Shown here: positions 7,350 through 36,792 of the stretch, piece by piece
Numbering within the stretch: the stretch's first letter is position 1
Layout of the letters: every line of letters starts with the position of its first letter
Assembly: GCA_001818365.1 (NCBI GenBank)
Contig: MHKK01000022.1
Location: forward strand, 5,636-46,204
From: Candidatus Komeilibacteria bacterium RIFCSPHIGHO2_01_FULL_52_14
GTDB lineage: Bacteria > Patescibacteriota > Patescibacteriia > UBA1558 > 2-01-FULL-52-15
Length of the DNA: 40,569 bases
Direction: 5' to 3'
The notes under the pieces: model-generated
What the model was told of the DNA's origin: nothing
What the model saw: only the letters and a program-made list of their open reading frames with translations
Databases searched by the model: none
Made by a program: the position numbers and the translations under genes

Positions 7350-9155
7350 ATGACTTCAAAACAGCTTAAGCATTTATACTTCAAATTCTTTCAGGATCGC
7401 GGCCACAAGCTGATCCCGTCGGCATCCCTGGTGCCGGAAAACGATCCGACGGTTTTGTTTACTCCTGCGGGTATGCACCCGTTGACGCCTTTTCTGATGG
7501 GTGAGAAGCATCCGCAGGGCACGCGGCTTGTTGATGCGCAGAAATGCATCCGTACCAGCGATATCGATGACGTGGGAGATGCGTCGCACCTGACTTTTTT
7601 TGAAATGCTGGGCAACTGGTCTTTAGGCGATTATTTCAAGAAAGAATCGATCGCGTGGAGCTACGAGTTTTTGACCGACAAAAAATATCTGGGATTTGAT
7701 CCGTCAAAGCTCTGGGTAACGGTATTTGCCGGCGAAGACGCCGTGTCTGGCCAGCCTGGCCGGCAGGCAGGCGGCAGGCAGGGGATTCCTCGCGACGAGG
7801 AATCGGCCGGCATATGGAAGTCGCTCGGTATTCCTGTCGAACGTGTCTTGTATTTTCCCCGTAAGGATAATTTTTGGGGGCCGGTCGGAGAAACCGGGCC
7901 GTGTGGTCCGGATACGGAGATTTTCGTCGATACCGGGAAAGATCCCTGCGGTCCGAACTGCGGGCCCGGATGCGGGTGCGGCAAATACTTTGAGGTGTGG
8001 AACAATGTATTTATGGAGTTCGAGCGGACGAAGGATGGGAGATACATACCGCTGAAGCAGAAGAACGTCGATACCGGCATGGGTGTCGAGCGTACCGTTG
8101 CCATGCTGGACGGTGCAAAGACGGTGTATGAAATAGATACGTTTCAGCCGCTCGTCAAAATGGTTCGCGAGCGCTCTGCGCAGTTTAACGAAAAATCGAT
8201 GCACATCATCGTGGATCATGTCCGCGCAGCCGTTTTTCTGCTCGCCGATGAACGCGGTGTCAAGCCCTCCAACGTCGATCAGGGATATGTTCTGCGACGC
8301 CTGATCCGCCGCATGATACGTCATGCGAAAATGATCGGCTTCGATCTGGACAATCTTCCCGAGCTCGCAAAAATCGTCATTCGCGAGTATCACGTGGACT
8401 ACCCTGAACTGGTCCGTAACGTTCGGGTTGTCGAAGAGGAGCTGATTAAGGAGAAAGACAAATTCCTGAAAACGCTTGAGCAGGGTATCAAGGCATTCGA
8501 AAAATCGACACGAAGCGGATCCATTTCCGGCAAGGACGCTTTCGTGTTGTTCTCGAGTTATGGATTCCCGCTTGAAATGGTTCAGGAGCTCGCCGCGGAG
8601 AAAAAGATCTCAGTCGATGTTGGCGGTTTCCAGCGGTTATTCGAGGAGCATCAGGAAAAATCACGTACTGCCGCAGCCGGAAAATTCAAAGGCGGTTTGG
8701 CCGATCACGGCGAGATGACGACGAAGTATCATACGGCGAACCATATGATGCTCGAAGCTCTGAAGCGCGTTCTCGGGCGGGACGTCGTCAATCAGAAGGG
8801 GAGCAATATTACCGCCGAGCGGCTTAGGTTCGATTTCACCTACCCGGGAAAAATGACAGCGGAGCAGATCAGGCAGGTCGAGGACATTGTGAACGGCGAG
8901 ATTAAAAAAAATCATCCCGTGCATTTTGAAGAGATGAGTGTTGCAGCAGCAAAACAGATTGGCGCAACTGGCGTCTTTGAACATAAATACAGCGATACGG
9001 TAAAGGTGTATTTTGTCGGCGACTACAGCACTGAGATTTGCGGCGGACCGCACGTTCAGAACACGAAAGGAATGGGGCTTCTTAAGATTGTAAAAGAAGA
9101 GGCAAGCTCCGCGGGCGTCAGGAGGATTAAGGCGGTCCTTACGCCGGACAAGTAA
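7350..9155 (+). CDS. alaS: Alanyl-tRNA synthetase, short form without C-Ala domain
   Basis: Class II motifs (FTPAGMHPLTPFLMGEKHP, RTSDIDDVGDASHLTFFEMLGNWSLGDYFK), editing-domain motif YHTANHMMLEAL and CGGPHVQNT; ends at about 601 aa. Confidence 0.95.
   Translation: MTSKQLKHLYFKFFQDRGHKLIPSASLVPENDPTVLFTPAGMHPLTPFLMGEKHPQGTRLVDAQKCIRTSDIDDVGDASHLTFFEMLGNWSLGDYFKKESIAWSYEFLTDKKYLGFDPSKLWVTVFAGEDAVSGQPGRQAGGRQGIPRDEESAGIWKSLGIPVERVLYFPRKDNFWGPVGETGPCGPDTEIFVDTGKDPCGPNCGPGCGCGKYFEVWNNVFMEFERTKDGRYIPLKQKNVDTGMGVERTVAMLDGAKTVYEIDTFQPLVKMVRERSAQFNEKSMHIIVDHVRAAVFLLADERGVKPSNVDQGYVLRRLIRRMIRHAKMIGFDLDNLPELAKIVIREYHVDYPELVRNVRVVEEELIKEKDKFLKTLEQGIKAFEKSTRSGSISGKDAFVLFSSYGFPLEMVQELAAEKKISVDVGGFQRLFEEHQEKSRTAAAGKFKGGLADHGEMTTKYHTANHMMLEALKRVLGRDVVNQKGSNITAERLRFDFTYPGKMTAEQIRQVEDIVNGEIKKNHPVHFEEMSVAAAKQIGATGVFEHKYSDTVKVYFVGDYSTEICGGPHVQNTKGMGLLKIVKEEASSAGVRRIKAVLTPDK
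7746..7783 (+). repeat. GC-rich palindromic repeat inserted in frame within alaS
   Basis: tctggccagcctggccggcaggcaggcggcaggcaggg encodes SGQPGRQAGGRQG; related to the intergenic palindrome cctgcctgccggcaggcagg at 38734-38753. Confidence 0.7.
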
Positions 9156-9165
9156 CGTATCGGAA

Positions 9166-9404
9166 ATGAAAGAGGGCGATGCGCACCGGCGCATCGCCCG
9201 AAAGTTGTCGTGAGTACGGTGTTACACGAGCGATCTCCTTTTCATTGGTTGTTGGTGCACGACGAAGTTCTTCGTTGAATCGATAGCGAGCCCTGAGGCA
9301 TCGCGCTGTAGCTTCGAGGAGTGCATCCGCTTAACCGCCCCGCATAGGAGGAGGTTGGTACCATTTCGCTGCAAGTTCCAGAAAACACTGTCATTTGTAG
9401 CGAA
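9166..9404 (-). ncRNA. Candidate standalone structured ncRNA, about 235 nt, family unassigned
   Basis: Minus-strand TTGACA-17-TATTAT promoter (9439-9434 / 9416-9411), several stem-loops, intrinsic terminator; no supported CDS. Confidence 0.65.
9172..9197 (-). terminator. Rho-independent terminator for the minus-strand transcript
   Basis: gggcgatgcgc-accg-gcgcatcgccc, perfect 11-bp stem; minus-strand tail tctttcattt. Confidence 0.85.
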
Positions 9405-9410
9405 TGTGCA

Positions 9411-9439
9411 ATAATAGCATATTGCTTTTTATTTGTCAA
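9411..9439 (-). promoter_or_regulatory. Near-consensus sigma70-type promoter of the candidate ncRNA
   Basis: Minus strand: ttgaca aataaaaagcaatatgc tattat (17-nt spacer). Confidence 0.8.
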
Positions 9440-9533: not shown

Positions 9534-9561
9534 TTGACACGGAAAGATAAAACTGTATAAT
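9534..9561 (+). promoter_or_regulatory. Promoter of the infA ribosomal protein operon
   Basis: ttgaca (9534-9539), 16-nt spacer, tataat (9556-9561). Confidence 0.8.
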
Positions 9562-9623: not shown

Positions 9624-9857
9624 ATGGCAGTACAGCCAGAAGATCAGTCAAAGGGGTTTATTGAGATGGAAGGTGTTGTCGCGGAGCTTTTGCCGAGCGC
9701 AACATTCCGTGTCACCCTCGACAACGGTCACGAGATACTCGCACATCTGTCCGGGAAGATGCGATTGAACCGCATCCGTTTGTTACCCGGCGATCATGTG
9801 CGTCTTGAGATCAGTCCGTACGATTTAACGAAAGGCAGAATAGTGTATCGCAGATAA
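9624..9857 (+). CDS. infA: Translation initiation factor IF-1
   Basis: [66 protein letters not shown]. Confidence 0.97.
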
Positions 9858-36113: not shown

Positions 36114-36189
36114 CCCGCTTCAAGGTGTTTGACCCCCTTCGCTTAGCCATTTGGCGGCAGCTTCGGGGATCTGCGGTCGCTGCGCGATC

Positions 36190-36219
36190 TTGACAGGTGA
36201 ACGAACGTTCACCTATACT
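36190..36219 (+). promoter_or_regulatory. lexA promoter with embedded SOS-box-like operator
   Basis: ttgaca (36190-36195), tatact (36214-36219), and aggtgaac-gaac-gttcacct (36195-36214) matching GAACnnnnGTTC. Confidence 0.8.
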
Positions 36220-36225
36220 ATATAT

Positions 36226-36792
36226 ATGAGCACAAAACAGTATGGCAAAATAATGGCTTTTTACGAGCAGCATAGGCGGATGCCCACCTATAGCGAGATC
36301 ATGCGTCTAATGGGCTTTAAATCGAAAAATTCGGCCTATAAGCTGGTGAATACCATGGTTGAAAAAGGCCTTATTCAGAAGGATACAAGCGGCAAGATCG
36401 TCCCCCGCCAGCTGACCTTGCCGGTACGGGTTTTGGGAACGGTCGAGGCCGGGTTCCCCTCCCCTGCCGAAGAAGAACTTTCGGACACCATGACCCTGGA
36501 TGAGTACCTTATCGAAAAGCGCGAGGCAACGTTTCTCTTAAAAGTTTCCGGCGATTCGATGTTTGATGCAGGCATTATGCCGGGTGATCTGGTCTTGGTC
36601 GAGCGAGGCAAAGATCCCAAAGCGGGCGACATCGTGATCGCCGAAGTCGATCATGAGTGGACCATGAAGTATTTCCAGAAAGTGAACGGACAGGTTACCC
36701 TCGTTGCGGCCAACAAAAAGTATCCACCGATCGTGCCGAAAGATGAGCTCAAAATTGCGGCTGTGGTGAAAGCCGTAGTGCGTAAATATTAA
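36226..36792 (+). CDS. lexA: LexA repressor
   Basis: Winged HTH PTYSEIMRLMGFKSKNSAYKLVNTMVEKGLI; cleavage motif VEAGFPSPA; SGDSMFDAGI catalytic Ser; EWTMKYF Lys. Confidence 0.93.
   Translation: MSTKQYGKIMAFYEQHRRMPTYSEIMRLMGFKSKNSAYKLVNTMVEKGLIQKDTSGKIVPRQLTLPVRVLGTVEAGFPSPAEEELSDTMTLDEYLIEKREATFLLKVSGDSMFDAGIMPGDLVLVERGKDPKAGDIVIAEVDHEWTMKYFQKVNGQVTLVAANKKYPPIVPKDELKIAAVVKAVVRKY

Follow-up and report, generated by a model that had tools for sequence, protein, structure and literature searches.

A predicted minus-strand gene for a small RNA between alaS and infA, apparently restricted to its lineage

Between alaS and infA, in the very small genome of an uncultured bacterium that is probably a member of the Patescibacteria, the minus strand carries what looks like a complete transcription unit, and the question that this locus raises is what kind of gene, if any, lies there. 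The stretch of DNA analyzed (referred to as the window; 40,569 nucleotides) is part of contig C22 in genome G000, the assembly of which comprises 860 kb and is 80% complete. A first-pass annotation of the window had reported a minus-strand TTGACA-17-TATTAT promoter followed by a perfect 11-bp terminator, and a scan confirmed both signals at the coordinates given there. The elements of the locus are the following.

9166 to 9404, minus strand: predicted noncoding transcript, with a body of ~205 nt plus the terminator (promoter and terminator bounds, codon usage).
9411 to 9439, minus strand: sigma-70-type promoter TTGACA-17-TATTAT with a TGC extended -10 (consensus scan, 11/12 matches); the -35 element TTGACA is at 9439 to 9434, the spacer has 17 nt, and the -10 element TATTAT, preceded by TGC, is at 9416 to 9411.
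9166 to 9199, minus strand: intrinsic terminator with a T-rich tail (scan and folding z score of -4.9); the hairpin, at 9199 to 9174, has a stem of 11 bp without a mismatch and a loop of 4 nt, and the tail reads TCTTTCATTT.
7350 to 9155, plus strand: alaS, the convergent neighbor (Pfam PF01411 and PF07973).
9624 to 9857, plus strand: infA, the divergent neighbor (Pfam PF01176).
9534 to 9561, plus strand: divergent promoter of infA, TTGACA-16-TATAAT (scan, 12/12 matches).

The promoter scan predicts a transcript start near 9404 on the minus strand, and the terminator hairpin begins 211 nt past the -10 element. Both types of signal are scarce in the window: three promoter-like sites with at least 11/12 matches were found on the two strands (0.2 expected), and there was a single terminator with a stem of at least 9 bp and a T tail (0.05 expected). 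When promoters with at least 11/12 matches were paired with terminators with a stem of at least 9 bp at distances of at most 350 nt, the unit at 9439 to 9166 was the only pair in the window, and none was present in 40 simulated windows whose local dinucleotide content was matched to it; it is thus very unlikely that these signals arose by chance. The third strong promoter-like site (36190 to 36219, plus strand, 11/12 matches) lies inside or adjoins the long frame at 36151 to 36792. Since the T-rich side of the terminator is found on the minus strand only, the hairpin, as an intrinsic terminator, serves this strand and not alaS. As to the promoter, blastn matches revealed that the same type precedes unrelated genes and RNAs in relatives, which makes it a strong promoter of general use within the group.

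The gene order mnmA-alaS-infA-rpsM-rpsK-rpsD also occurs in the named relatives of this alaS (Uhrbacteria, Magasanikbacteria, and others) and suggests a placement in the Patescibacteria, probably within the ABY1 group. The alaS stop codon lies 18 bases beyond the terminator hairpin of the minus-strand unit. This alaS is a short form; its 601 amino acids reach little further than the second additional domain, and its matches in relatives are open frames of comparable size. On the minus strand, the ORF list and Pfam revealed no gene downstream of the unit, only the antisense of alaS; a cis-regulatory leader or attenuator, which needs a downstream gene on the same strand, was rejected for this reason.

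Conservation and covariation in relatives, on which the first-pass annotation had staked its proposal of a new RNA, were found neither at the order nor at the class level, as judged from the spacer, blastn, and a covariance model. Blastn searches against 54 genomes returned mainly the promoter, which is a generic motif. For the body, no homologue was found by blastn in 37 genomes of the order; the one short match, in G029, is located inside a coding frame. The covariance model, searched against 384 genomes of the class, retrieved only the sequence itself, bar one borderline match in G361 (E value of 0.0097 per genome, with 384 genomes searched) that covers an open frame's 3' end together with the terminator behind it; built from one sequence and its predicted fold, this model is blunt and could miss a far-diverged homologue. 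The unit is also absent from the alaS-infA spacer of the order relatives in which both genes are adjacent. In one of the order relatives, G016 (L034:3249-3879), the spacer contains another, unlike short open frame with the orientation of the window RNA; the alaS-infA spacer thus seems to accept lineage-specific inserts. The sole other family genome in the set analyzed (67% complete) is a bin with neither alaS nor infA. No plasmid matched the unit, and phages matched the promoter only. Taken together, the lack of homologues in the order and the class and the absence of the unit from the spacer of relatives provide no evidence that the RNA is under selection. To judge from the genomes compared, the unit would be restricted to its lineage.

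The RNA had initially been described as structured on the basis of three helices, which are given below with their pair probabilities in the computed ensemble.

9365 to 9404, minus strand: SL1, a 5' stem-loop UUCGCU...AGCGAA (0.73 to 1.0).
9333 to 9356, minus strand: SL2, AACCUCCUC-CUAUGC-GGGGCGGUU, with CCUCCUCCU at 9354 to 9346 (0.73 to 0.96).
9256 to 9325, minus strand: long arm UGCAC..CGAAG / CUUCG..GUGCA (0.74 to 1.0).

These helices are thus present in the ensemble, as proposed, but a notable structure of the body was not confirmed: without the terminator, the body had a z score of -0.48, and 57 of 200 shuffled sequences folded equally well. The z score of -2.5 obtained for the full transcript is mainly due to the terminator, which none of 200 shuffles equaled (z score of -4.9). 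SL2 (z score of -1.1) and the long arm (about -0.6) folded no better than chance as judged from shuffles. SL1, one of five stretches tested for folding, appears to be the sole body element that stands out a little (z score of -2.4; equaled by 4 of 200 shuffles). The claim of a notably structured RNA is weak, whereas the transcription unit itself is well supported.

We consider it about an even bet (probability of roughly 0.5) that the segment from 9166 to 9439 is a lineage-specific minus-strand gene for a small RNA whose mode of action is base pairing, be it in cis or in trans. The body is richer in G+C (51%) than the rest of the spacer (34%), which also speaks for such a gene. The strong sigma-70-type promoter would start a minus-strand transcript of ~205 to 240 nt, which would end at the intrinsic terminator just past the 3' end of alaS. 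Such an RNA may pair in trans with other messages. Alternatively, it may act in cis, as any alaS message running on toward infA would be its full complement; a scan of the plus strand between alaS and infA detected no terminator-like site, and read-through antisense to the RNA is therefore possible. Among 35 start regions in the window, a rough duplex test identified no convincing trans target (best z score of -3.1), which counts against this reading, as do the chance-level folding of the body and the lack of homologues.

The main rival to a small RNA gene is a transcribed spacer that has no function, which we regard as possible but distinctly less probable. The promoter would be newly arisen or would survive from a lost gene, the sequence between the two signals would be under no selection, and the terminator would shield alaS from antisense transcription. 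Several observations are consistent with this: the body folds at the chance level, neither blastn nor the covariance model retrieved a homologue, and the G+C content of the body (51%) is close to that of alaS (52%), as a lost gene would leave, compared with 34% in the infA-side remainder of the spacer. Near-perfect signals at both ends, on the other hand, are unlike decay, and SL1 stands out slightly from shuffled sequences. Bolder and more doubtful than either reading is the idea that this family has a new structured RNA, expressed at high levels and with a cellular role, for example, as a cis-antisense RNA to alaS-infA read-through or as a stand-in for a lost RNA; we view it as a long shot. 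The locus looks like a genuine transcription unit, ordinary in kind and restricted to its lineage, the structure of which was overstated earlier. Its value is modest: a credible small RNA gene, so far without annotation, in the genome of an uncultured bacterium that probably belongs to the Patescibacteria.

The comparison with known RNA families bears on a further alternative, namely, a housekeeping RNA in divergent form, for example, 6S RNA or signal recognition particle (SRP) RNA. The Rfam scan suggested in the first-pass annotation was run with gathering and relaxed thresholds and retrieved no family for 9166 to 9404 on the minus strand; the best relaxed matches, to SraG (E value of 4.3, opposite strand) and to ftsZ-DE (at the terminator hairpin), were attributed to chance. 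In agreement with the annotation, the RNA is neither tmRNA nor RNase P RNA. ARAGORN identified no tmRNA (RF00023) in the window, and the tmRNA of this genome is on contig C47; likewise, RNase P RNA (RF00010) had no match in the window and is encoded on contig C19. A divergent 6S RNA, which had been put forward as one option, was not borne out: the fold as a whole is not a rod with a central bubble, and RF00013 matched none of 54 genomes (this genome and 53 relatives), although the same searches detected 6S RNA in control genomes. The window RNA also has no match to the models of bacterial SRP RNA (RF00169 and RF01854; model match including domain IV), and neither the small nor the large form of SRP RNA was found in the 19 order genomes searched (G000 to G018) with searches that work in control genomes. 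Since the standard models miss 6S RNA and SRP RNA throughout these sets, unrecognized versions could exist, and the length and the strong promoter of the window RNA would fit. A housekeeping RNA, however, is expected to be conserved across the order, which this one is not, and the hairpin RNA of contig C23, which is described below and occurs class-wide, makes a better candidate here; together with the missing rod and the lack of an Rfam match, this makes a housekeeping RNA at 9166 to 9404 very improbable.

Equally hard to credit is an anti-Shine-Dalgarno regulator, in which CCUCCUCCU would bind the leaders of messages and the downstream gaaaaggaga would compete for it. Both segments do exist in the sequence, but CCUCCUCCU is mostly paired within SL2, and the competition of gaaaaggaga for ccuccuccu that the first-pass annotation had envisaged is not predicted, the summed pair probability of the two segments amounting to 0.04 in the ensemble. 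Targets would be few as well: even a 4-base Shine-Dalgarno-like motif precedes the start of just 7 of the 36 long frames of the window. This switch was hence rejected. Finally, a small protein gene, corresponding to the 65-amino-acid frame at 9242 to 9439 or its 50-amino-acid ATG form, can be dismissed with similar assurance: the frame is open across most of the transcript, but Pfam gives no match for it, the ATG is ~10 nt from the predicted start and has no Shine-Dalgarno site, and the codon score of the ATG form (-0.53 per codon) is at the off-frame mean (-0.52, standard deviation of 0.24), far from that of true coding windows (0.28, standard deviation of 0.13), so that the reading frame was rejected as a gene. 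Codon usage, Rfam, and the pair count thus uphold the earlier description of an orphan minus-strand transcription unit that has neither a coding signal nor an Rfam family.

The promoter matches in relatives led to a second RNA, located outside the window, since some of them preceded a shared noncoding RNA, a hairpin of ~120 nt. A model built from four such RNAs (R2) matched 302 of 384 class genomes, in most cases once per genome. Two matches were seen in many family f4 genomes; 18 of 19 f4 loci checked had a weaker match on the other strand of the hairpin. The copy in the genome studied here is at C23:1136-1255 (L185:1136-1255) on the minus strand, as matched by R2, and further copies are given under L155 to L184 and L187 to L193. 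Common to the copies are a nearly invariant ACGACAAGCAUGGG stretch and, opposite it, a nearly invariant UUCUUG; the copies looked at have their own promoter and terminator. In an alignment of 31 copies, 94.5% of the cells pair, and 40 of 46 pairs changed on both sides, compared with 27.8 (standard deviation of 2.1) in shuffles and 21 to 30 in slid controls; the covariation score was 0.70 versus 0.22. This alignment was fitted to the structure, which favors covariation, but the margin is large nonetheless. With a wider model (R3), 36 of 384 phylum genomes were matched, 31 of them within its order or class and 5 outside the class, the latter with weaker matches. Rfam 15 gave no match at E values up to 1 in twelve loci, and a full-text search of a limited literature collection retrieved no paper on this motif. 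Two long hairpin-like noncoding stretches behind the same promoter type, in two other relatives at L008:1271-1501 and L020:1271-1501 (both on the minus strand), have closing stems followed by T runs and also lack an Rfam match.

Because the SRP and 6S RNA models fail in these genomes, one idea is that the hairpin RNA may be the RNA of a housekeeping ribonucleoprotein, in which case it would be of direct relevance to protein targeting or transcription control in these reduced bacteria. It is the stronger find of the two and matters more than the window RNA. The latter is not a copy of it, as the model has no match at 9166 to 9404 on the minus strand.

Comparison with known systems places the window RNA as follows. 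(i) It is comparable to 6S RNA (RF00013) in length, but 6S RNA forms a rod with a closing stem and a central bubble, and the window RNA has neither such a rod nor a match to the model. (ii) The class-wide RNA (R2 and R3) consists of a single long hairpin whose ACGACAAGCAUGGG-type loop is invariant, unlike the window RNA; the two are alike in promoter type and terminator, both are noncoding, and both are present in the same genome. (iii) The intergenic small RNAs of bacteria differ from the window RNA in that the latter has no family, known target, or homologue, and its transcript is a prediction; with this general kind of RNA, it shares its size, its organization as a stand-alone unit, a strong promoter, an intrinsic terminator, and the lack of a coding signal.
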